A stretch of 32,305 bases of DNA. Origin: Mycobacterium sp. Lineage in GTDB: Bacteria; Actinomycetota; Actinomycetes; Mycobacteriales; Mycobacteriaceae. The position numbers and the translations under genes were made by a program. The DNA is taken from assembly GCA_025965975.1 (NCBI GenBank), contig JAOPVX010000042.1, positions 1-32,305 of the forward strand. Direction: 5' to 3'. Each line of letters starts with the position of its first letter. Position 1 is the first letter of the stretch. Below the pieces are notes generated by a model that was given only the letters and a program-made list of their open reading frames with translations, searched no databases and was not told where the DNA came from. This document shows, one piece after another, positions 2,976 to 29,968 of the stretch.

Positions 2976-3200
<225 letters not shown>

Positions 3201-8982: not shown

Positions 8983-9036
8983 CTGATATATCAGAGTGTG
9001 ACCCGCATCGTAGCCGGACCCGGCATTGACGGTCAA
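8983..9036 (-). promoter_or_regulatory. glyA-sdaA promoter with GntR-type operator
   Basis: On the minus strand, -35 TTGACC (9036-9031) and -10 TACGAT (9012-9007) are 18 nt apart, predicting a start of transcription near 9000. The perfect 12-bp palindrome CTGATATATCAG (8983-8994) lies just downstream, a typical place for repression. The same palindrome in the same arrangement precedes soxB next to the FCD-GntR gene. Confidence 0.65.
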
Positions 9037-9117
9037 GGGGCCGGTCTGATGCCGTGTTACCAGCGCGTTTCGTTTCGCTCTTCCCCTTGACAGTGATATG
9101 CGGCACAATCCAATCTG

Positions 9118-9151
9118 TTGCATGTAGAGGGTTCTATTGCGCAATACGCAA
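9118..9151 (+). promoter_or_regulatory. betB-proVWX promoter with IclR-type element
   Basis: TTGCAT (9118-9123) is spaced 18 nt from CAATAC (9142-9147). The -10 sits inside TTGCGCAATACGCAA (9137-9151), whose TTGCG/CGCAA arms are perfect. The geometry is identical to the promoters at 14912 and 18478. The predicted transcript starts near 9154, which excludes longer betB starts. A TTGACA at 9087-9092 may mark a second promoter but has no convincing -10. Confidence 0.6.
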
Positions 9152-9182
9152 CGTTAGCGTTGCCAGGCGAGAGGCCGAGCCT

Positions 9183-10661
9183 TTGGCAGAACACCCGAAT
9201 CTGTACATCGCGGGTGAATGGCGCCCGGCGCTCGATCGCGCTCGCCGCGAAATCCGATGTCCCGCCGACGGTCAGCTGGTTGCCACAGCCGCCGAGGCCT
9301 CCACCGAGGACACGCATGCCGCGATCGCCGCAGCGCGCGAAGCCTTCGACGCGGGCCCGTGGCCGAATACGCCGGAACGCGAGCGGGCGGACGTGTTGCG
9401 GCGCACCGCCGAGCTGATGGACCGCGACCGCAAGGATTTCGTCCGCGCCGAGGCGCTCGACACCGGCAAGCGGATCGTCGAAGCCGAGTACGACATGGAC
9501 GATGTCGCGGCGTGCCTGCGCTACTACGCAGGCGTCGGCGGCACCGAGGCCGGACGCGTTGTGGACACCGGCAGGACGGATGCGATCAGTCGCCTCGTCT
9601 ACGAGCCGATCGGCGTCTGCGGACTGATCACTCCCTGGAATTACCCCCTGCTGCAAGCAATCTGGAAAGTAGCGCCGGCCCTGTTGGCGGGAAACACCTT
9701 CGTGCTCAAGCCGAGCGAGCTGACACCGTCGACCGCAGTTCTTCTGATGCGGGCGTTGGAGGAAGCGGGCCTGCCTGCCGGCGTCGCCAATCTCGTTCTG
9801 GGTGCCGGGCCGGCCGCCGGCGCACCGTTGTCGGAACACCCGGATGTGGACATGGTCTCTTTCACCGGCGGCGTCGCATCGGGTATCCGGGTGATGGCGG
9901 CGGCCGCGACGACCGTCAAACGGGTCGCGCTGGAACTCGGAGGGAAGAATCCCAACGTCGTTTTCGCCGACGCCGACTTCGAGGCCGCAGTGGATTTCGC
10001 GCTCACCGCAGTGTTCCTGCATTCGGGCCAAGTGTGTTCGGCGGGCGCCCGCCTGATCGTCGAGCAGTCGATCCACGATGGGTTCGTCGACGAGGTCGTC
10101 CGTCGTGCCGAGCGGATCACCCTCGGTGGACCGTTCGACCCGGACGCCGAGACGGGCCCGCTGATCTCCGCCGCACACCGCGACAAGATAGAGGCGTATG
10201 TGGCCGCCGGACTGGCCGAGGGCGCGGTGCTGCGTTGCGGCGGCCGCCGGCCGGACGACCCGCGCCTTCACGATGGCTTCTTCTATCTCCCAACAGTTCT
10301 CGATGGCTGTCACTCAGGCATGTCGGTGACGAAAGACGAATCGTTCGGCCCGGTGCTCACCGTCGAGACATTCACCGATGAAGACGACGCAGTACGCATC
10401 GCCAACGACACCGACTACGGGTTGGCGGGCGCGGTTTGGACTCAGGACGCGGGCAAGGCGCAGCGCGTCGCGCACCGACTGCGGCACGGGACCATCTGGA
10501 TCAACGACTACCACCCCTACGTGCCGCAGGCCGAATGGGGCGGAATGAAGCGCTCCGGCATCGGCCGCGAACTCGGCCGGGCCGGCCTCGACGAATACCG
10601 CGAGATCAAACACATCTGGCAGAACACCAACCCACGGCCCGAGCGGTGGTTCCGGGGATAA
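9183..10661 (+). CDS. betB: Betaine aldehyde dehydrogenase
   Basis: 492-residue NAD(P)-dependent aldehyde dehydrogenase, oxidising betaine aldehyde to glycine betaine. The family order is intact: the Rossmann contact region with PWNYPLLQAIWKVAPALLAG, the FTGGVASG turn, catalytic Glu in ELGGKNPNVVF and catalytic Cys in SGQVCSAGARL. The C-terminal oligomerisation part holds EWGGMKRSGIGRELG. TTG 9183 was chosen: GAGAGG lies 8 nt upstream, and the protein then starts MAEHPNLYIAGEW. Upstream in-frame starts precede the predicted promoter. Its substrate is inferred from the neighbouring choline dehydrogenase and betaine genes. It leads a probable operon with proVWX. Confidence 0.85.
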   Translation: MAEHPNLYIAGEWRPALDRARREIRCPADGQLVATAAEASTEDTHAAIAAAREAFDAGPWPNTPERERADVLRRTAELMDRDRKDFVRAEALDTGKRIVEAEYDMDDVAACLRYYAGVGGTEAGRVVDTGRTDAISRLVYEPIGVCGLITPWNYPLLQAIWKVAPALLAGNTFVLKPSELTPSTAVLLMRALEEAGLPAGVANLVLGAGPAAGAPLSEHPDVDMVSFTGGVASGIRVMAAAATTVKRVALELGGKNPNVVFADADFEAAVDFALTAVFLHSGQVCSAGARLIVEQSIHDGFVDEVVRRAERITLGGPFDPDAETGPLISAAHRDKIEAYVAAGLAEGAVLRCGGRRPDDPRLHDGFFYLPTVLDGCHSGMSVTKDESFGPVLTVETFTDEDDAVRIANDTDYGLAGAVWTQDAGKAQRVAHRLRHGTIWINDYHPYVPQAEWGGMKRSGIGRELGRAGLDEYREIKHIWQNTNPRPERWFRG

Positions 10662-10718
10662 CCCTTCGGGCCCGCCGCACCCCGATTGACCGACAGCCCA
10701 ATTAGTTAGGAGATTCCG

Positions 10719-11813
10719 GTGGCCATCCACACAGAGAGTGCACCCACGACGGTGGTCGCTCCGCCCAGCCCTGGCCGCGACGACGCGGAACTCAGTGTCG
10801 AAGGACTGTGGAAGGTCTTCGGCAACAAGGCTTCCGACGTCGCATGCGACGAGAGCATGGAAAGGCTCAGCGTCCAGGACATCAAGAAGAAGACGGGGTG
10901 CGCGGTCGCCGTGCGCGACGTCAGCTTCGACGTCGGCTGCGGCGAGGTGTTCGTCGTGATGGGCCTGTCCGGTTCCGGCAAGTCCACGCTGGTGCGATGT
11001 CTGACGCGGCTCATCGAGCCGACAAAGGGCCATGTGGTGTTCCAGGGCACCGACATCACGGCCGCGGGCGAGAAAGAGCTGCGAGACCTGCGCCGCCGCA
11101 AGGTCTCGATGGTCTTCCAACATTTCGGCCTGCTGCCCCACCGGCGGGTGCTCGACAACGTCTCATACGGCCTCGAGGTCCGTGGCACCGACAAGAAGGA
11201 CAGGATGAAGCGTGCCGCCGAGGTCACCGAGCTGGTCGGGCTGGCGGGGTACGAGAACTCCTACCCGGATCAGCTGTCCGGTGGCATGAAGCAGCGGGTC
11301 GGGCTGGCACGCGCACTGGCCAGCGATCCGGACATGCTGCTGTTCGACGAGCCGTTTTCGGCGCTGGATCCGCTGATCCGGCGCGACATGCAGAACGAGG
11401 TGATCCGGCTGCACCACGAGATGGGCAAGACGATGGTGTTCATCACGCACGACCTGTCCGAGGCGCTCAAGCTCGGCGACCGGATCCTGATCATGCGCGA
11501 CGGAGCGATGGTCCAGGTCGGCACCGGTGACGAGCTCGTCGGCGCCCCGGCCGACGACTATGTTCGCGAATTCGTCAGCGACATACCACGTTCGCGGGTG
11601 CTGACACTGAAATGGATCATGCGCGAGAAGCGCCCCGACGATCCGGTCGACGGCCCCGAGATGGCCCCGGACACCGTGATTCGCGATGCCGTCGACCCGG
11701 TGCTCGCCGCCGAGAAGCCGATCAAGGTGGTCTCGGACGGTAAGTTACTTGGCATCGTCGGCCGGAGTGAGATCCTCGCGGTGATCGGCAAGGTCGACGA
11801 GGGCGGTGCGTGA
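10719..11813 (+). CDS. proV: Glycine betaine/choline ABC transporter, ATP-binding protein
   Basis: 364-residue ATPase of the ProV/OpuAA quaternary-amine type. Walker A is GLSGSGKST (about residues 86-94), the Q-loop lies near [12 protein letters not shown], the signature is LSGGMKQR, Walker B is MLLFDEP, and the switch His is in ITHDLSEA. After the nucleotide-binding domain comes a short CBS-like C-terminal stretch ([19 protein letters not shown]), the region that senses osmolarity in OpuA-type ATPases; here only about half is present. GTG 10719 follows AGGAG by 6 nt. It lies 57 nt after betB and overlaps the permease gene by one base. It powers uptake; substrate choice among betaine, choline and carnitine is inferred. 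Confidence 0.9.
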
Positions 11814-13864
11814 TGGCCACCATCGCGGTAGGAGCACCACCGGCACCACCGGCGCCGGCGGCACAGCCGCGGACGTCGTGGTTCTCCGAACGTGGGCCTG
11901 CACAGTTCATTGCGGCCATCGGCGCAGTGTTGGGTGTCTGGATTGTGCTGTTCACTCTGCTGCGCGGCCGCAACACGCTTGCCCTCGCACCGGCCGACAC
12001 CAAGCCGCTGCATGTCTGGCTCTCGGACCTGCAGACCTCCGTCGGCGAGGGAAGAAACACCAACCCACTCTTCACGTATCTCTTCAATCCGATCCGGTCG
12101 GTGATCGACGCGTTCGCGACCGCGATTCAGGACCTGATCGCGCACCCCGTCGACGGGCGGCCCGTCCCCTACATCGGTTGGCTCGGCGTCGTGGTGCTGT
12201 TCACGGTTCTGGCCTGGCTTCTCGGCAACTGGAAGGTCGCGCTGCTCACCCTGTGCGGGTTGTTGTTCATGGGTTTGCAGGGCCTGTGGCAAGAGAGCAT
12301 GGACACCTTGGCGCTGACCATCGCCGCCGTCGTGATAGCGCTGCTCATCGGAATTCCGTTGGGCATCTGGGCCGGGATATCGGACGGGTTCAATCGCTTC
12401 ATCACCCCGGTGCTGGATTTCATGCAGATCCTGCCGTCTTTCGTCTACCTCGCACCGCTGACGCTGGCCTTCCTGATCGGCCCGGCCGCGGCAGTGATCG
12501 CCACGGTGATCTACGCGGCTCCCCCCGTCATCCGGCTCACCGCACACGGCATTCGGTCCGTGCCGCAAGAATCGCGTGAGGCGGTCGAGTCGCTGGGTGC
12601 CACCAGACAGCAGGAGTTGTTCGGGGCGCTGCTGCCAATGGCCAAGCGCACCATCGTGCTCGGCATCAACCAGACCATCATGGCCGCGCTGGCGATGGTC
12701 ACCATCGCCGCGCTGATCGCCGCTCCTGGCCTCGGTCAGGTGGTGATCCAGGCGTTGTCGACCCAGGACGTCGGCACCGCATTCAACGCCGGTCTTGCCA
12801 TCGTGCTGTTGGCCATCATCCTGGACCGGACCACCACGGCCGCGAGCGAGCGCGTGGAAACCCAACGGCGAAAGTCGGCCGAGCCCAGCCAGTTTCGGCG
12901 TCCCGCGATCGCGATCGGCGCCGTCGTGACGGCGATCGCGATCTGGCTGTCCTACACCTACCAGCTGGTGGCGATCTTCCCGTCGTCGTTACAGATCGGG
13001 ACGGCTCGCATCGGGCTCGATGTCGGCACACACATCATCAACGTCGCGAACTCCGTGACCAACTGGGCGCAAACCAGCTTCTCCGGGGTAACCAACGGCA
13101 TCAAGGACGTGGTCACCGCGTGGGCACTCGACCCGCTGCAGACGCTGCTGGACAGCTCGCCGTGGTGGCTCACCTTCATGGCGATCACCGCGATCGCGGC
13201 GATCGTCGGGGGTCGCATCGCCGCGCTCATCACGGCCGTGTGCCTCGGCCTGATCGCGTGGCCGCTGTGGCTGTGGCAGGACACCATGGACACCCTCGCC
13301 GCGGTGCTGGTCGCCACCGTGGTGGTCGTCGCGCTCGGGGTGGTGGTCGGCGTCTGGATGGGCCGCAGCCCCACTGCGGACAAGATCGTGCGACCGTTCC
13401 TGGACGCCGCCCAGACCATGCCGTCGTTCGTGTATCTGGTGCCGTTCCTCGCGTTGTTCTCGGCATCGCGATTCACCGGCATCGTGGCGGCGATCGTCTA
13501 CGCGGCCCCGGTGTCGATCAAGATCATGGCCGACGGGATCCGCGGTGTGTCGCCCGAGACCGTCGAGGCGGCCCGCTCGGTGGGGTCGAACTCCTGGCAA
13601 GTAATCACCAAGGTGCAGCTGCCGATGGCCGCGCGTTCGCTGACGCTGGCGACCAATCAGGGCCTTATATATGTGCTCTCCATGGTGGTGGTCGCCGGTC
13701 TGGTCGGCGGCGGCGCGCTGGGCTACCTCGTAGTGGCCGGCTTCTCGCAGACCAGCCTGTTCGGCAAGGGCCTGGCGGCGGGTCTGGCCATTGTGCTGCT
13801 CGGCACCATTCTCGACCGCACCACCGCGGCCGCGGCGCGACGGATAGGACGGACGGGCGAATGA
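11813..13864 (+). CDS. proW: ABC transporter permease, two fused ProW-like domains
   Basis: 683-residue membrane protein holding two binding-protein-dependent permease domains in one chain. The first EAA-like loop is SREAVESLGATRQQELFGAL (about residue 255); the second is SPETVEAARSVGSNSWQVIT (about residue 580). Each half has its own set of transmembrane helices and repeated landmarks (MQILPSFVYLAPLTLAF and AQTMPSFVYLVPFLALF). Most ProW/OpuAB proteins are single-domain and dimerise; here the dimer is covalent. ATG 11813 overlaps the proV stop (TGATG), and the substrate-binding gene overlaps its end by 4 nt. Translational coupling of all three transporter genes is likely. Confidence 0.9.
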   Translation: MATIAVGAPPAPPAPAAQPRTSWFSERGPAQFIAAIGAVLGVWIVLFTLLRGRNTLALAPADTKPLHVWLSDLQTSVGEGRNTNPLFTYLFNPIRSVIDAFATAIQDLIAHPVDGRPVPYIGWLGVVVLFTVLAWLLGNWKVALLTLCGLLFMGLQGLWQESMDTLALTIAAVVIALLIGIPLGIWAGISDGFNRFITPVLDFMQILPSFVYLAPLTLAFLIGPAAAVIATVIYAAPPVIRLTAHGIRSVPQESREAVESLGATRQQELFGALLPMAKRTIVLGINQTIMAALAMVTIAALIAAPGLGQVVIQALSTQDVGTAFNAGLAIVLLAIILDRTTTAASERVETQRRKSAEPSQFRRPAIAIGAVVTAIAIWLSYTYQLVAIFPSSLQIGTARIGLDVGTHIINVANSVTNWAQTSFSGVTNGIKDVVTAWALDPLQTLLDSSPWWLTFMAITAIAAIVGGRIAALITAVCLGLIAWPLWLWQDTMDTLAAVLVATVVVVALGVVVGVWMGRSPTADKIVRPFLDAAQTMPSFVYLVPFLALFSASRFTGIVAAIVYAAPVSIKIMADGIRGVSPETVEAARSVGSNSWQVITKVQLPMAARSLTLATNQGLIYVLSMVVVAGLVGGGALGYLVVAGFSQTSLFGKGLAAGLAIVLLGTILDRTTAAAARRIGRTGE

Positions 13865-14847
13865 GACGCATTGCTATCGCGGCGGCGGCCGCGGCGCTGG
13901 TGTTGTTGATCTCGGGTTGCAACGCCACCAAGGTGTCGGACCTGCAGAGCCGAGGGCAGTTGAAGCCCGGCAGCAAGCCGTGCGGCACCTTCAACGTGGC
14001 CATCAACGCGTGGGTGGGTTACCAGGCGGATGCGGCCGTGCTTACCTATCTCGCGGAAAACAAGTTGGGCTGCGTGGTCAAGCAGAAACATGTCGCCGAG
14101 CAGGTCGCCTGGCAGGGCCTGTCCACCGGCCAAATCGACGCCATCCTCGAGAACTGGGGTCACGACGACCTACGCAAGCAGTACATCGACATCATGGGCG
14201 TCGCGCAGAGCGGCGGCTCCACCGGCAACGTGGGTGAGATCGGCTGGTATGTGCCGCCGTGGATGGTCGAGAAGTACCCGGACATCACCGACTGGCGCAA
14301 CCTAGACAAGTATGCCGAGGTGTTCCGGACCTCCGAATCCGGCGACAAGGGGCAACTGCTCGACGGGGATCCGTCCTACGTCACCAACGACGCCGCGCTG
14401 GTGGCCAACCTGGGCCTTAACTACAAGGTGGTACAGGGCGGCAGCGAAACGGCGTTGATCGCCAGCCTCCGCCAGGCACAGGAGCGCAAGATCCCGATGC
14501 TGGCGTACTTCTATTCGCCGCAGTGGTTCCTCGGTGAGGTGCCGCTGGTGAAGGTCAACCTGCCGCCCTACACCTCGGGATGCGACGCCGATCCGGCCAA
14601 GATCGCCTGCGACTATCCGAAGTACGACTTGGACAAGATCGTCTCGACCAAGTTCGCCGCGTCCGGCAGCCCGGCCTACGCGCTGCTGAAGAACTTCCAA
14701 TGGACCAACGAGGATCAGAACTCCGTCGCCCGCTCGATCGCGGTGGACGGGATGAGTGACGACGAGGCCGCCAAGAAGTTCATCGATGCGCACCCGCAGC
14801 TCGTCGCCAAGTGGTTGGCCGGCACCGGAGCAGAGACTACGGCCTGA
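13861..14847 (+). CDS. proX: Glycine betaine-type substrate-binding lipoprotein
   Basis: 328-residue ProX/OpuAC-family solute receptor. A lipoprotein signal peptide ends in LISGC (lipid-modified Cys20), so the protein is anchored outside the membrane. The binding domain begins with FNVAINAWVGYQADAAVLTYL and contains Trp-rich segments (AWQGLSTGQIDAILENWGHD and GEIGWYVPPWMVEKYPDITD) of the kind that form aromatic cages around quaternary amines. The start ATG 13861 overlaps the permease stop (ATGA), which rules out the much longer upstream frame. The actual ligand (betaine or choline) cannot be settled from sequence. Confidence 0.9.
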   Translation: MRRIAIAAAAAALVLLISGCNATKVSDLQSRGQLKPGSKPCGTFNVAINAWVGYQADAAVLTYLAENKLGCVVKQKHVAEQVAWQGLSTGQIDAILENWGHDDLRKQYIDIMGVAQSGGSTGNVGEIGWYVPPWMVEKYPDITDWRNLDKYAEVFRTSESGDKGQLLDGDPSYVTNDAALVANLGLNYKVVQGGSETALIASLRQAQERKIPMLAYFYSPQWFLGEVPLVKVNLPPYTSGCDADPAKIACDYPKYDLDKIVSTKFAASGSPAYALLKNFQWTNEDQNSVARSIAVDGMSDDEAAKKFIDAHPQLVAKWLAGTGAETTA

Positions 14848-14911
14848 CCGAAGCCGTCAGAAAGTAGTGCGCCAACGCTCTTGACAGCGCTAGGCAACGT
14901 CCACCACGCTG

Positions 14912-14945
14912 TTGCATATCGCGCGTCATGTTTCGTAATACGATA
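14912..14945 (+). promoter_or_regulatory. Rieske operon promoter with IclR-type element
   Basis: TTGCAT (14912-14917) is 18 nt from TAATAC (14936-14941). The 15-bp element TTTCGTAATACGATA (14931-14945) covers the -10 and contains the inverted repeat TCGTA-A-TACGA. The spacing is identical to the betB promoter. The predicted start of transcription near 14948 precedes the GGGAAGG ribosome site at 14961-14967. Confidence 0.6.
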
Positions 14946-14975
14946 CAAAATCGCCACAATGGGAAGGCCACGGTA

Positions 14976-15338
14976 TTGCTCGAAATCTGTCCAGTCGCGG
15001 CCCTGCCCCGCGGTGAGGCGCGGCGGGTCGAAGCGGATCCACCGATCGCGGTTTTTCACACCGACGACGGCGAGGTGTTCGCGGTCGACGACACCTGCAC
15101 GCATCAGGACGCGTCGCTCGCCGACGGCTGGCTGGAGGGCTGTGAAATCGAATGCCCGCTGCACGCATCGCGTTTCGACCTTCGTACGGGTGCCGTCGAC
15201 GCGCCACCGGCGAAGCTACCCGTGCGCACCCACGAAGTGGTCATCCTCGACGGCGTGATCAACGTCGTCCTCGACGATGCCCCGCCCAACCTTCCCCCCG
15301 GCGTCACCACCCGCGCGGTCGGCGAGGGGGCACAGTGA
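14976..15338 (+). CDS. Rieske-type ferredoxin
   Basis: 120-residue soluble Rieske 2Fe-2S ferredoxin, an electron carrier to a ring-hydroxylating-type oxygenase. The cluster motifs are CTHQDASL (C41, H43) and CPLHASRF (C60, H63). TTG 14976 was chosen because GGGAAGG lies 8 nt upstream and the product then begins MLEICPVAALPRGE, as in related ferredoxins. A longer frame from ATG 14928 would start before the predicted transcript and run through the operator. It overlaps the reductase gene by 4 nt (GTGA). With the next two genes it forms a three-component oxygenase system. Confidence 0.9.
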   Translation: MLEICPVAALPRGEARRVEADPPIAVFHTDDGEVFAVDDTCTHQDASLADGWLEGCEIECPLHASRFDLRTGAVDAPPAKLPVRTHEVVILDGVINVVLDDAPPNLPPGVTTRAVGEGAQ

Positions 15339-16504
15339 AAAGCGTCGCGGTGATAGGTGCGTCGCTGGCGGGACTGTCGGCGGCCCGCGCGTTGCGCGCA
15401 CAGGGTTTCGACGGCGAGCTGACGGTCGTCGGCGGCGAGGCGCGGCGGCCCTACGACCGTCCCCCGCTGTCGAAGGAGTTCCTGGCCGGTGATGTCGGCG
15501 AGGACGTGCTGGCTCTGGAAGCCGAGGACGACGACCTCGACGCCCAGTGGCTGCTGGGGGTGCACGCAACCCGGCTCGACGCGGCCGCAGGCGCCGTACA
15601 GCTCGACAACGGAACCACGGTCCGCACCGACGGCATCGTCGTGGCCACTGGTGCGCGGGCACGGTCATGGCCCGCCTCAGCGCGCCTCGCCGGAGTGCAC
15701 GTGCTGCGCACAGTTGACGACGCACTGGCCCTGCGCCACGACCTGCGCCCTGGCGCGCGGCTTGTAGTGATCGGCGCCGGATTCATCGGAGGCGAAGTCG
15801 CCTCGACCGCAGCGAAATTGGGATTGCACGTCACGGTGGTCGAGGCCGCGCTGGCACCGCTGGCCGGCCCGCTCGGCGTGCAACTCGGGGCCGCGGTGGC
15901 ACGGCTGCACACCGAACACGGCACCCGGCTGCTGTGTGGGGCTCCGGTTGCGGGTCTGCTCGGTACCGATCGAGTCACCGGCGTGGAATTGGCCGACGGT
16001 CGCCGGATCGCCGCCGATGTCGTCGTCGTCGGCATCGGCGCCGTCCCCAACGTCGAGTGGCTGCGCGACAGCGCCATCGAATTGGCCAACGGCGTCGTAT
16101 GCGACGCAGGCGGCGCAACCTCCGTGCCGAATGTGGTCGCGGTGGGCGACTGCGCGGCCTGGCATGAGCCGTCCGTCGGCTGGCCGCACCGCGTCGAGCA
16201 TTGGACCGGCGCGATGGAGCGCCCGGCCATCGCGGTCGCCACGTTGCTCGCGGGCGGACGGCACGACGGCATTCCGGCCAAACCCCCGTACTTCTGGTCC
16301 GATCAGTACGGCCGCCGGATCCAGTTCGCGGGCATCGCCCATCCCGGCGATGAGACCACATTCGAGGTGGGCAGTCTGCGCGACGCCAGCTTCCTGGCCG
16401 TGTACCGGCGCGGGGGTGAACCGGTCGCCGTACTGGGCGTGGATCAACCGCGGCTGTTCACGCGCTGGCGACGACAACTGGCCGTCGTGCCGGTTCCGGC
16501 CTGA
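15335..16504 (+). CDS. NAD(P)H:ferredoxin reductase, FAD-dependent
   Basis: 389-residue reductase of the putidaredoxin/rubredoxin reductase type, passing electrons from NAD(P)H to the Rieske ferredoxin. The FAD site is VAVIGASLAGLSAARALRAQ (residues 4-23), the NAD site is LVVIGAGFIGGEVAS (near 141), and the second FAD contact is VPNVVAVGDCAAW (about 263). The C-terminal third is the reductase-specific beta-rich domain. GTG 15335 overlaps the ferredoxin stop by 4 nt, with GAGGGGG just upstream. It is followed 35 nt later by the oxygenase. The electron partner is inferred from gene order. Confidence 0.9.
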   Translation: MKSVAVIGASLAGLSAARALRAQGFDGELTVVGGEARRPYDRPPLSKEFLAGDVGEDVLALEAEDDDLDAQWLLGVHATRLDAAAGAVQLDNGTTVRTDGIVVATGARARSWPASARLAGVHVLRTVDDALALRHDLRPGARLVVIGAGFIGGEVASTAAKLGLHVTVVEAALAPLAGPLGVQLGAAVARLHTEHGTRLLCGAPVAGLLGTDRVTGVELADGRRIAADVVVVGIGAVPNVEWLRDSAIELANGVVCDAGGATSVPNVVAVGDCAAWHEPSVGWPHRVEHWTGAMERPAIAVATLLAGGRHDGIPAKPPYFWSDQYGRRIQFAGIAHPGDETTFEVGSLRDASFLAVYRRGGEPVAVLGVDQPRLFTRWRRQLAVVPVPA

Positions 16505-16539
16505 CTCCCTATCCCCGCGCCACAGCAGAGGAGATCGCG

Positions 16540-17661
16540 ATGACCATCGTCAGCCCGCCGCAAAGCCTCATCTCGACGCTGCCCGGCAGTTATTACACCG
16601 ACGCCACTATCTTCGCGATGGAACAGGCGGAGATCTTCGAGTCGATGTGGTTCTGCGCCGTGCGGTCCGACCATCTCGACAAGCCAGGGGCATTCAAGAC
16701 CGTCCAGGTCGGACGCGAGAGCGTGCTGATCACGCGGTCCCGCAGCGGCGAGGTGCGCGCGTTTTTCAACGTCTGCCGGCATCGCGGCGCACAGCTGTGC
16801 ACCGAGGAGAGTGGCGAAGTCAAGCGCGCATTCCAATGCGGTTACCACGCTTGGACTTACGACCTCGACGGAAAGCTGGTGGCCGCACCGAACCTGACCA
16901 GGATGCCGGACATCGACCGGGTCGAGTACAGCCTGCACCGGATCGCGGTGCAGGAGTGGCTGGGCTATGTGTGGGTGTGTCTGGCCGATACCCCACCGTC
17001 GTTCGACGACACCGTGCGCAAGGACGTCAGCGATCGGCTGGGCGGCGTCGAACTCATCGACCAATACGACGCCGCGCACCTGCGCGTCGGTCGCCGGATC
17101 CGCTATGACGTCGAGGCGAACTGGAAGCTCATCATCGAGAACTTCATGGAGTGCTACCACTGCGCCACCATCCATCCGGAACTCACCGAGGTGCTGCCCG
17201 AGTTCGCCGACGGGCTGGCGGTGCAGTACCACGTCGGACACGGCGCCGAATTCGGCGAGCACGTCGAAGGATTCACCATCGACGGCTCGGCCGGTCTCGA
17301 CCAGATCCCCAGCGTCGGGCAGGACCAGGACCGGCGCTACTACGCGATCACGATCAAGCCGCAGGTGTTCGTCAACCTCGTTCCCGACCATGTGATCGTG
17401 CACCGGCTGTTTCCGCTCGCCGCGGACCGCACGGTCGTCGAATGCGACTGGCTGTACCTGCCCGAAGTGGTGGACTCGGGCAAGGACGTCAGCCACTCGG
17501 TGGAGTTGTTCCACCGAGTCAATGAGCAGGACTTCGCCGCATGCGAGCGCTGCCAGCCGGCGATGAGCTCACGGCACTACCGCGACGGCGGGGTGTTGGT
17601 GCCCAGCGAGCATCACATCGGCGACTTCCACAACTGGCTGCAGGCGAAGCTGACGAAATGA
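16540..17661 (+). CDS. Rieske oxygenase, probable glycine betaine demethylase
   Basis: 373-residue oxygenase alpha subunit. The Rieske cluster ligands are C79, H81, C100 and H103 (CRHRG and CGYHAW). The mononuclear iron site is in ENFMECYHCATIHPEL, with H207 and H212 as ligands and E204 as the likely bridging carboxylate; EQDFAACER near the C-terminus may supply the third ligand. The fold and length match quaternary-amine demethylating oxygenases (GbcA, stachydrine demethylase). Setting between betB, betA, a DgcA-like gene and sarcosine oxidase points to glycine betaine to dimethylglycine plus formaldehyde. The family is certain; the substrate is inferred. AGAGGAGA precedes ATG 16540. It converges on the IclR gene with a 14-nt gap. 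Confidence 0.8.
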   Translation: MTIVSPPQSLISTLPGSYYTDATIFAMEQAEIFESMWFCAVRSDHLDKPGAFKTVQVGRESVLITRSRSGEVRAFFNVCRHRGAQLCTEESGEVKRAFQCGYHAWTYDLDGKLVAAPNLTRMPDIDRVEYSLHRIAVQEWLGYVWVCLADTPPSFDDTVRKDVSDRLGGVELIDQYDAAHLRVGRRIRYDVEANWKLIIENFMECYHCATIHPELTEVLPEFADGLAVQYHVGHGAEFGEHVEGFTIDGSAGLDQIPSVGQDQDRRYYAITIKPQVFVNLVPDHVIVHRLFPLAADRTVVECDWLYLPEVVDSGKDVSHSVELFHRVNEQDFAACERCQPAMSSRHYRDGGVLVPSEHHIGDFHNWLQAKLTK

Positions 17662-17675
17662 CCGCGTCGGTCCCG

Positions 17676-18455
17676 TCAGTCGAGATGGCCCATCCGGTGG
17701 CTGATCGTCGCCGCGGCGGCGACGACATCGGGGGTCACCTCGCGCATGCGTCCTTCGGTGAATCGGTAGACCGGACCCGATACGGACAGCGCCGCGATCA
17801 CACCGCCGGTGTGGTCGCGGACCGGGGCGGCGACGGCGTTCAGCCCCTCCTCCAGTTCCTCGACCGAGAACGCGTATCCATCGCGCGCTGCCGCCTCGAC
17901 CTGCGCCTCGAGTTCGCGTTGCGATGTGATCGTATGGGTGGTGAGTTTGGCAAGCCCCGACGAGGCCAACAACTTTCGGCGGTCTTCGGGTGTCATGTAC
18001 GCGAGCAGGATCTTGCCGCTCGAGGTGGCGTGCAACGGCGTCAGCTCACCGACCCAGTTGTGCGTGGCGACCGCACTCGGCCCGCGCGCCTGGTCGATGT
18101 TGACAACGAAATGCGACCGCCGCACGGCGATGTTGACGGTTTCGCCGAGCTGCGCGGCGAGCTGTTCGCAGCCCGCACGGGCCTGTTGGGTGACGTCCAG
18201 TTGGCCGGGCACGGCGCTGGCCAGCCGCAGGATGCCGAAGCCGAGGCGGTACTTTCCGCGGTCCTGGGTCTGCTCGACGAGTTCGCGTTCCTCGAGCGCC
18301 GCGAGCAACCGGAACGCCGTCGACTTGTGCACGCCGATGTCGGCGGCGACCTCGCTGACGCCGGCTTCACCACGTTGGGCCAGGATCTCCAGCACGCTGA
18401 CGGCGCGGTCGACCGACTGCACGCCCACGGCGCCGTCACCTCGCGCGTTGCTCAT
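17676..18455 (-). CDS. IclR-family transcriptional regulator
   Basis: 259-residue regulator. The N-terminal winged helix spans about residues 12-70, including VSEVAADIGVHKSTAFRLLA. A flexible linker follows, and the C-terminal effector domain contains HATSSGKILLAYM and GYAFSVEELEEGLNAVAAPV. ATG 18455 was chosen because TATAGT at 18467-18462 ends 6 nt before it, the arrangement of a leaderless mycobacterial mRNA; neither this ATG nor the one at 18485 has a ribosome site. It is divergent from betA. It probably controls betA, betB-proVWX and the Rieske operon through the shared promoter element. The effector is unknown; choline, betaine aldehyde or betaine are likely. Confidence 0.9.
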   Translation of the reverse strand: MSNARGDGAVGVQSVDRAVSVLEILAQRGEAGVSEVAADIGVHKSTAFRLLAALEERELVEQTQDRGKYRLGFGILRLASAVPGQLDVTQQARAGCEQLAAQLGETVNIAVRRSHFVVNIDQARGPSAVATHNWVGELTPLHATSSGKILLAYMTPEDRRKLLASSGLAKLTTHTITSQRELEAQVEAAARDGYAFSVEELEEGLNAVAAPVRDHTGGVIAALSVSGPVYRFTEGRMREVTPDVVAAAATISHRMGHLD

Positions 18456-18461
18456 AACGCA

Positions 18462-18467
18462 ACTATA
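18462..18467 (-). promoter_or_regulatory. Leaderless -10 box of the IclR gene
   Basis: On the minus strand TATAGT ends 6 nt before ATG 18455, so transcription should begin at or next to the start codon. It lies 11 bp from the betA -35, so the two divergent promoters are closely packed. Confidence 0.5.
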
Positions 18468-18477
18468 CGAGCCGGAG

Positions 18478-18511
18478 TTGCACATTGAGAAACTTGATTC
18501 GTATCACGCTT
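18478..18511 (+). promoter_or_regulatory. betA promoter with IclR-type element
   Basis: TTGCAC (18478-18483) is 18 nt from TATCAC (18502-18507), overlapped by ATTCGTATCACGCTT (18497-18511). The 19-nt offset between -35 and element is the same as at the betB and Rieske promoters. It is the most diverged copy, matching the Rieske element at 10 of 15 positions. Confidence 0.5.
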
Positions 18512-18552
18512 CGGAGCGATAGCCTTTTCCCAGGATCCGCAGGAGGACAACG

Positions 18553-20250
18553 ATGACATCGACGCGGTACGACTTCGTAATCGTCGGCGGCGGATCGGCA
18601 GGGTGCGCGCTCGCCAACCGCCTTTCGGCCGACCCGGCCAACAAGGTTCTGGTCCTGGAAGCGGGCCGCAACGATTCGTTGTGGGACGTGTTCGTGCACA
18701 TGCCTGCGGCGCTGCCGTTTCCCATCGGAAGTCGTTTCTACGACTGGAAATACGAGTCCGAACCCGAGCCGCACATGGACGGCCGACGCGTCTACCACGC
18801 CCGCGGCAAGCTACTCGGGGGCTCGAGCAGCATCAACGGGATGATCTTCCAGCGCGGCAATCCGATGGACTACGAGCGCTGGGCCGCCGACGCCGGCATG
18901 GCCGACTGGGACTTCGCGCGCTGCCTGCCGTACTTCAACCGCATGGAGAATTGCCTGGCCGCCGCACCCGACGACCCGTTCCGCGGGCACGACGGACCTC
19001 TCGCGCTGGAACGCGGACCGGCAACGAACCCGTTGTTCGAGGCGTTCTTCACCGCGGCCGAGCAGGCCGGTTATCCCCGCACCGATGACGTAAACGGTTA
19101 CCGGCAAGAGGGTTTCGCGAAGTTCGACCGCAATATCCGCAATGGCCGGCGGCTCTCGGCCGCCCGCGCCTACCTGCATCCCGTAATGCACAGGCCGAAT
19201 CTGGACGTCATCACGAGGGCGTTCGTCGAGCGGGTGATCTTCGACGGCAAGCGCGCGGTCGGCGTCGAGTACCGGCATCTGTTCGGCGGCACCAAGCGGG
19301 TCAGCGCCGGCCAGGTCGTGCTGTGTGGCGGGGCGATCAACAGCCCGCAGCTGCTGCAGCTGTCCGGCGTCGGCAACGCGGCGGATCTGCAGGCGCTCGG
19401 CATCGAGGTGGTGCACGACCTGCCCGGTGTCGGCGAGAACCTCCAGGACCCCCTCGAGGTGTACATCCAATACGCCTGCAAGCAACCGATTTCCATGCAG
19501 AAGTACCTGAAATGGCGGTACCGGCCGTGGATCGGCGCCAACTGGTTGTTCCTGCGCCGTGGCCCCGGCGCGACGAACCACTTCGAGGGCGGGGGCTTCG
19601 CCCGGAGCAATGACGACGTCGCCTACCCGAATCTGATGTTCCACTTCCTGCCGATCGCGGTCCGCTACGACGGCTCCTCGCCCGAAGGCGGCGACGGCTA
19701 TCAGGTGCACGTCGGCCCGATGTACTCCGATGCGCGAGGCAGCGTGAAGATCACCAGCCGTGATCCGAAGGTGCATCCGGCACTGAGGTTTAACTACCTG
19801 TCCACCGATCAGGACCGCCGAGAATGGGTCGAGTCCATCAGGGTGGCCCGCGGGATCCTCAACCAGCCCGCGATGGCACCGTTCAACGGCGGGGAGATCT
19901 CGCCCGGGCCGAGCGTGGACACCGACGAGCAGATCCTCGACTGGGTCGCGCGCGACGCCGAAACCGCACTGCACCCCTCCTGCACGGCCAAGATGGGTAC
20001 CGATGCGATGTCGGTCACCGACCCGCAGACGATGGGTGTGCATGGCGTCGAGGGCCTGTCGGTCGTCGACGCATCGGTCATGCCGTACGTGACGAACGGC
20101 AACATCTACGCGCCGGTGATGATGGTCGCGGAAAAGGCGGCGGACCTGATTCTTGGCAACCAACCGCTGCCGCCCGCGACGGTGTCGTTCTACCGGCACC
20201 AGCTCAAGCAGCAGCAGGCCAGCGACCAGGAAGCGGCCCGCCAGGGCTGA
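18553..20250 (+). CDS. betA: Choline dehydrogenase (GMC flavoprotein)
   Basis: 565-residue GMC oxidoreductase. The FAD-binding motif [20 protein letters not shown] is at the N-terminus, and the GMC signatures are [17 protein letters not shown] (about 90) and [16 protein letters not shown] (about 260). The catalytic pair is His in [11 protein letters not shown] and Asn in [11 protein letters not shown]. Length and motifs match BetA, which oxidises choline to betaine aldehyde and passes electrons to the respiratory chain. AGGAGG is spaced 6 nt from ATG 18553. It is divergent from the IclR gene and convergent with the MBL gene. Choline is the likely substrate from context; other alcohols are possible in this large family. 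Confidence 0.85.
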
Positions 20251-20259
20251 GTTTCGCGT

Positions 20260-20320
20260 CAGCTGCCTGAGCTTATTTGGCAGCTCAGCTGCCTGAGCTT
20301 ATTTGGCAGCTCAGCTGCCG
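20260..20320. repeat. Tandem 26-bp hairpin repeat, bidirectional terminator
   Basis: A 26-bp unit occurs twice perfectly (20260-20285, 20286-20311), plus a third partial start CAGCTGCCG. Each unit carries AGCTGCC and GGCAGCT arms around an 11-nt loop that includes TTATTT. It sits between the convergent betA and MBL stops and ends at the MBL stop codon, so a duplicated terminator serving both directions is the simplest reading. Confidence 0.65.
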
Positions 20321-29223: not shown

Positions 29224-29276
29224 AACTGATATATCAGTTGTGGAGCAGAGTATGGTACGTTGATGCACGCGGTCAA
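29224..29276 (-). promoter_or_regulatory. soxB operon promoter with GntR-type operator
   Basis: On the minus strand -35 TTGACC (29276-29271) is 18 nt from TACTCT (29252-29247). The perfect 16-bp palindrome AACTGATATATCAGTT (29224-29239) lies just downstream, 30 bp before the soxB start. Its 12-bp core is identical to the one at glyA. It also lies 63 bp upstream of the divergent GntR gene, so autoregulation is possible. Confidence 0.7.
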
Positions 29277-29302: not shown

Positions 29303-29968
29303 ATGAGCGTGGAGCTGGCCGACACCGGCGAGGGACCCACCCCGTCCAACGCCGATCTTGCGTACGAGATCATTCGCGAGCGGCTCATCATGCTCGATAT
29401 CCGCCCTAGAGAACCGATCAACGACGAGGGCCTTGCGCGTCAGCTCGGGTTCGGGCGGACACCGGTACGCGAGGCACTCAAGCGGCTCGAGCGCGACCGG
29501 CTCGTCGTCGCCTATCCCCGCCGCGGAACCTTCGCCACGACCGTGGACATCACCGATCTGGCGCACATCCAGGAGATTCGACGCCAACTCGAACCGGTAG
29601 TCGCGGCGCGCGCCGCCCACAGCGCGCCGCTGGAAACCCGGATGAAGCTGTCCGCGCTCGCCGAAGAGATTGCCCGGCTCGACCCTGCAGACGACCCGCG
29701 ATCCTTGCTACGGCTCGACGTACGGGTCCATACCGCGATCTACAAGGCCTCCGGCAACCCGTATCTGGAGGACGTGCTGGTCTGCCAGGACGCCCACGCG
29801 ACCCGCATCTGGTGCCTGTTCCTTGACCGACTGGCGAACGTCGCCGAACACATCACCGAACACGTCGGGCTGCTGAGAGCGATCGTCGACGGCGACGGCG
29901 ACCTGGCGGCCAAGTTGGCCTCCGAACACGTCGTCGGTTTCGAACAGGCCGTGCGCGCCGTCCTCTAA
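29303..29968 (+). CDS. GntR-family regulator, FCD subfamily
   Basis: 221-residue regulator. The winged helix spans about residues 17-80, with GRTPVREALKRLERDRLVVA as recognition helix and turn. The all-helical FCD effector domain follows, with metal-site candidates in LDVRVHTAIYKASGN, ITEHVGLLRAI and ASEHVVGFEQ. ATG 29303 has AGGAG 7 nt upstream. It is divergent from soxB. The shared palindrome between them and upstream of glyA makes it the likely controller of sarcosine and glycine breakdown. The effector may be sarcosine, dimethylglycine or glycine (inferred). Confidence 0.9.
   Translation: MSVELADTGEGPTPSNADLAYEIIRERLIMLDIRPREPINDEGLARQLGFGRTPVREALKRLERDRLVVAYPRRGTFATTVDITDLAHIQEIRRQLEPVVAARAAHSAPLETRMKLSALAEEIARLDPADDPRSLLRLDVRVHTAIYKASGNPYLEDVLVCQDAHATRIWCLFLDRLANVAEHITEHVGLLRAIVDGDGDLAAKLASEHVVGFEQAVRAVL

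Follow-up and report, generated by a model that had tools for sequence, protein, structure and literature searches.

The 32,305-nucleotide (nt) stretch of Mycobacterium sp. DNA analysed here (contig JAOPVX010000042.1, positions 1–32,305, assembly GCA_025965975.1; hereafter the window) carries three copies of a tandem palindromic element, one each upstream of betB-proVWX, a Rieske operon and betA. These elements are very probably operators of the IclR-family regulator encoded in the same cluster at 17676–18485 on the minus strand. Assignment to an IclR regulon, offered as an inference in a first-pass annotation of the window, is well supported by sequence comparison: tandem palindromes 19 base pairs (bp) apart, their recurrence at corresponding genes of relatives, in many cases next to iclR, and co-occurrence of operator and regulator across 396 genomes.

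Two palindromes in tandem at three promoters

The first-pass annotation described each element as a hexamer, TTGCAT at 9118 and 14912 and TTGCAC at 18478, followed after exactly 13 nt by TTGCGCAATACGCAA, TTTCGTAATACGATA and ATTCGTATCACGCTT, respectively. These letters and positions were confirmed, as was the placement of the three sites before betB-proVWX, the Rieske operon and betA, with iclR (minus strand) divergent from betA (plus strand). The shared element is real, but its description as a hexamer plus one box does not hold, since TTGCAY makes up the left arm of a first palindrome. All three sites contain a 34-bp unit of two 15-bp palindromes in tandem, with 4 bp between them and their centres 19 bp apart. 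On the plus strand, box 1 and box 2 are TTGCATGTAGAGGGT (9118–9132, with a degenerate right arm) and TTGCGCAATACGCAA (9137–9151) at betB, TTGCATATCGCGCGT (14912–14926) and TTTCGTAATACGATA (14931–14945) at the Rieske operon, and TTGCACATTGAGAAA (18478–18492) and ATTCGTATCACGCTT (18497–18511) at betA/iclR, giving a consensus of about TTGCRTAATACGMAA-N4-TTKCGTAATACGCAA. The left part is itself palindromic in relatives, for example TTGCGTAATACGAAT. Relative to the gene starts at 9183, 14976 and 18553, the box centres lie at -39/-58, -38/-57 and -49/-68.

TTGCAY occurs eight times on the plus strand and four times on the minus strand of the window. We trained a matrix on two of the sites and ranked the remaining one among 64,541 further positions from the two strands; the sites at 9118 and 14912 came first and that at 18478 third. 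A pattern fitted to all three sites matches just these three in the 7,437,493-base assembly and nothing in a reversed control, a result that is circular as a significance test. A second, looser pattern, derived from the middle site and allowing up to three mismatches, recovered two of the three sites and nothing else in the assembly.

Tandem palindromes 18–22 nt apart have been predicted for 94 groups of IclR regulators (Suvorova and Gelfand, 2021; PMC8222616). The group-1 operators described in that paper have palindromes of the type WTTYCRYW3RYGRAAW, which the present boxes resemble in part, their arms preferring TTGCG/CGCAA; centres 18–22 nt apart (here 19) and a location 20–80 nt before the gene are shared. 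The PcaU, PobR and PcaR operators listed there are likewise built from palindromic boxes, of the GTNCG-N5-CGNAC kind; those of PcaU and PobR have three boxes and serve aromatic-acid genes, while here two full palindromes precede choline/betaine genes. Measured against the published 17-bp consensus, box 2 agrees at 14, 14 and 10 of 17 positions and box 1 at 11, 10 and 13. Single boxes are not above chance, and the single-box consensus was set aside as a detector, not being significant alone. Scored as 19-nt pairs by the same consensus, the three sites rank 2, 3 and 5 of 32,270.

Conservation and co-occurrence with iclR

The elements are kept as blocks in relatives. In aligned promoters, one conserved block spans both parts and the gap between them at betB (four loci), at the Rieske operon (four) and at betA (five, the window being included each time). 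We built a matrix for the 15-bp box from 12 sites of five close loci and applied it to 22 other loci: three from Streptomyces, 14 from genomes with iclR at 66–71% identity, and five more distant. Box pairs at exactly 19 bp numbered 31 in these 22 loci versus 0.55 expected at the lower threshold, and 26 versus 0.2 at the higher. The pairs lie upstream of genes for a Rieske ferredoxin, betB, betA, iclR, an FAD-oxidoreductase and mscR, and at least one pair over threshold was found in 25 of the 27 loci. No box pair was present among 59,506 positions in 16 loci holding distant iclR paralogues.

The operator adjoins iclR itself in the window and in L004, L005, L006 and L068, where it is strong, and also in L007, L009, L073, L075, L076, L078 and L087, where some copies are weak. 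The matrix scan gave 50 box pairs in the 27 loci, 34 of which were used for promoter analysis. The other 16 (L005 2182; L007 9894; L008 5828, 5835 and 9990; L009 9927; L069 24; L073 10472; L075 9651 and 12215; L076 9642; L078 9622; L085 11791; L087 9583, 10501 and 10520) were left out as weak, overlapping, or next to iclR without a clear target gene; some matrix matches, such as L005 2182, L069 24 and L075 12215, resemble background. The Rieske site set omits two clade-B genomes, G404 with a low matrix score and G031 with its site beyond the fetched stretch.

Co-occurrence across the genus points to the same regulator. Of 396 genomes in the genus, 39 contain a match to a degenerate operator pattern (up to three mismatches) modelled on the nearer relatives; its reversed control matched nothing. 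At E <= 1e-60, 91 of the 396 have an iclR homologue, and 38 of the 39 operator genomes fall within those 91 (hypergeometric 1.3e-26). In the 39th, G123, an iclR homologue lies in pieces across reading frames about 11 kb from the operator; the split homologue occupies 3908523–3909276 of contig C1 (locus L120), and this genome has both the operator and a GbcA gene. A GbcA-like gene is present in 92 of the 396 genomes and in all 39 with the operator. Among nearer genomes, 17 of 18 match the operator pattern. VHKST is found in the recognition region in all 46 orthologue rows (two genomes contributing two rows each) and in none of 16 paralogues.

Several observations weigh against the operators being those of IclR. 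The operator pattern is absent from 52 of the 73 genomes with iclR at 45–52% identity (21 match) and from the window's own genome, and loci L083 and L084 have no pair at threshold although their iclR is at about 60%. Smaller peaks of box pairs at 7, 9 and 12 bp lack an explanation, overlapping registers perhaps being involved. The loci share kinship, and the counts do not represent independent events. In the window, the right arm of betB box 1 is poor, and words with at least 14 of 17 matches to the published consensus number 4 versus 2.1 expected, betA box 2 scoring 10.

Promoter geometry, mode of control and alternative explanations

At betB and the Rieske operon, conserved promoter-like hexamers lie directly upstream of the operator. 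The predicted betB promoter (9087–9116, plus strand) consists of TTGACA at 9087–9092, an 18-nt spacer and CAATCT at 9111–9116, and that of the Rieske operon (14881–14910, plus strand) of TTGACA at 14881–14886, an 18-nt spacer and CACGCT at 14905–14910. TTGACA is present upstream of all 25 betB and Rieske sites (24 exact, one TTGACG), followed after 17–18 nt by a hexamer with A at position 2 and T at position 6. With one FAD-oxidoreductase site and one mscR site added, TTGACA (up to one mismatch)-N17/18-NANNNT was found at 27 of 27 sites, compared with 127 of 116,000 random points; all 27 agree with a sigma-70-type promoter as defined by a -35 near TTGACA, a spacer of 16–19 nt, and A2 and T6 in the -10. 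The NANNNT hexamer ends 1 nt ahead of box 1 in 23 of the 27 and 3–4 nt ahead in the rest. TTGACA is more likely to be a -35 than an extra IclR half-site: it keeps 17–18 nt from NANNNT, whereas the spacing to box 1 ranges from 30 to 33 nt. From the genus scan 30 operator loci were kept, 15 of them upstream of a distant FAD-oxidoreductase gene and used here, 12 at Rieske genes, and three (L091, L103 and L109) without a determined direction. All 15 distant sites of known direction have TTGCGC, TTGCGT or TTGACG (TTGMGN), then 17 nt, then GATGAT (14) or AACAAT (one), in a search whose form was shaped after the sequences were seen.

The betA site is arranged differently. The predicted betA -10, TAGCCT (18520–18525, plus strand), sits 8 bp past box 2; in five close loci TAGCCT follows box 2 by 8–9 nt, and in two Streptomyces loci TAGCAT follows by 6 nt. 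On the opposite strand a predicted iclR -10 and start codon (18453–18467, minus strand) comprise TATAGT at 18467–18462 and, 6 nt on, an ATG at 18455, and this TATAGT-N6-ATG arrangement is kept in five aligned betA/iclR loci. By the spacing rule for leaderless messages, it suggests that the iclR message is leaderless and starts at 18455, not at 18485 of the longest frame. Transcription of betB, the Rieske operon and betA would be expected to start at about 9123, 14917 and 18532.

Other results count against these promoter assignments. None of seven betA sites has TTGACA, so the promoter geometry is not common to all three sites. Strict sigma-70 consensus (TATAAT) scans found no promoter at betB or the Rieske operon, where the proposed -10s agree with TATAAT at A2 and T6 only.

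The geometry at betB and the Rieske operon is what would be expected of a repressor site. Centres 19 bp apart, or about two helical turns, would allow two IclR dimers, or one tetramer, to bind the same side of the helix. The operators of betB-proVWX and Rieske-gbcA begin 1 nt past the conserved -10 and would cover the predicted start, the promoter-like hexamers lying directly upstream; that of betA would overlie the -35 region of betA and, on the opposite strand, that of iclR, upstream of the -10 TAGCCT. Uptake and oxidation of choline and glycine betaine may thus be repressed through promoter occlusion, with relief by a pathway compound, and iclR may repress itself. If IclR does bind, control most probably takes the form of repression together with autorepression, a view we hold with fair confidence. 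Activation by IclR, in which RNA polymerase would work from a different promoter located past the operator, is a rather unlikely mode of action. IclR-family activators such as PcaU and PobR exist, and the betA operator does lie upstream of a conserved -10. At betB and the Rieske operon, however, the conserved hexamers are upstream of the operator, and the ribosome-binding region follows it by 14–18 nt in the window, leaving little space for a downstream promoter.

The layout of the first-pass annotation, with TTGCAY as the -35, the 15-bp element covering the -10 and starts near 9154, 14948 and 18514, is improbable. TTGCAY does look like a -35, and at the Rieske site TAATAC lies 18 nt from it; consensus promoter scans back neither layout. 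Yet TTGCAY belongs to a palindrome as its left arm, the conserved TTGACA-N18-CANNCT at betB and the Rieske operon lies directly upstream, the corresponding hexamers recur at the 15 distant-clade sites, and at betA the conserved TAGCCT is downstream of the element that was to cover the -10.

Binding of the elements by the GntR/FCD regulator encoded at 29303–29968, in the same cluster, is considerably less probable still and was rejected. The Rieske site, as TCGTAATACGA, fits the FadR-type consensus, TNGTNNNACNA. A GntR homologue (E <= 1e-20) is nevertheless absent from 18 of the 26 operator genomes tested (out of 39) and from three Streptomyces genomes with sites, and another palindrome, CTGATATATCAG, suits GntR better. 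A role of the palindromes as hairpins in a leader RNA, which an upstream start would permit by placing them in the transcript, is hardly credible and was likewise rejected: the window has no Rfam match, at betA the predicted -10 comes after the element, and the arms pair poorly (across 20 sites, positions 1–5 pair in 4, 20, 2, 20 and 9 for box 1 and in 11, 14, 12, 20 and 14 for box 2).

Pathway, a second palindrome and significance

The genes of the cluster would together form a pathway from choline through glycine betaine to glycine. A betB-like aldehyde dehydrogenase gene (9183–10661, plus strand) heads the betB-proVWX group and scores 598 bits with TIGR01804, under the cut-off of 668.6; proV, proW and proX (10719–14847, plus strand) encode a betaine/choline ABC transporter, ProV scoring over the TIGR01186 cut-off and the permease being recognized by Pfam. 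The Rieske operon (14976–17661, plus strand) encodes a Rieske ferredoxin, with a likely TTG start at 14976, a ferredoxin reductase and a GbcA-like Rieske oxygenase (NF058607, 223 bits, under the cut-off of 670). Both the betB and the GbcA names are given by likeness, their models scoring below cut-off. Choline dehydrogenase, betA (18553–20250, plus strand), reaches 817.5 bits with TIGR01810, over its cut-off of 732.1. Further cluster genes encode an S-(hydroxymethyl)mycothiol dehydrogenase, an OYE-like oxidoreductase, a soxB-like FAD oxidoreductase and a serine hydroxymethyltransferase (SHMT); curated cut-offs were passed by BetA, ProV, the mycothiol dehydrogenase and SHMT. The proposed regulator, iclR (17676–18485, minus strand, as the longest frame), matches PF01614 at 146 bits (cut-off 24) and PF09339 at 54.7 bits (cut-off 22), so that the IclR_C and HTH_IclR domains both score over their Pfam cut-offs, and TtgV and IclR proteins are among its relatives in the PDB. 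It fits none of the named NCBIfam equivalogs BhcR, PcaR/U, KdgR, AllR and IclR, the best being BhcR at 186 bits against 350.

Two repeats were also observed in the window. A 26-bp unit with GCTGCC and GGCAGC, present in 2.3 copies without mismatch at 20259–20319 between convergent betA and a metallo-beta-lactamase-fold gene, is perhaps a doubled terminator, and a perfect hexanucleotide repeat, GGTATG x 5.3, occupies 3148–3179.

The palindrome CTGATATATCAG occurs exactly twice in the window, at 8983–8994 before glyA and at 29226–29237 between soxB and gntR, with 0.25 occurrences expected at up to two mismatches. It is found again at glyA in L004, L006 and L068; of 14 clade-B loci, 12 have it at glyA or gntR. 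It is the probable operator of GntR, whose own regulon would then cover the lower part of the pathway. Clade-B loci (L069, L070 and L072–L082) mostly have two adjacent gntR-like genes, 55–60% and 63–67% identical to the single GntR of the window. On balance, we lean towards a scheme in which choline/glycine betaine breakdown in mycobacteria and streptomycetes alike would be under one IclR repressor, acting at a tandem operator just past the -10, and GntR with CTGATATATCAG would act in some of them on the lower one-carbon half (glyA, soxB). No described counterpart of such a two-regulator split was found among the matches listed from the open-licence literature.

In Proteobacteria, choline and betaine genes are governed by BetI (TetR family) and GbdR (AraC family); the pathway is the same, but the regulators are of other families, an IclR protein lying within the cluster here. 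Among the matches listed from the open-licence literature there was no IclR regulator of choline/betaine breakdown in actinobacteria. The word 'betaine' is absent from the accessible main text of PMC8222616, whose supplement may list the group, and in the accessible parts of PMC7434839 and PMC3141670 the search words match in unrelated places. The proposed regulon is new; the IclR tandem-operator kind is already known.

Both choline and glycine betaine are widely available as nutrients and as osmoprotectants. If the assignment is correct, it would provide a regulator, an operator and a promoter geometry for a pathway that, judged by its GbcA-like gene, is found in the same 92 genomes of the genus. 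The case also illustrates that half a palindrome may pass for a -35 box.

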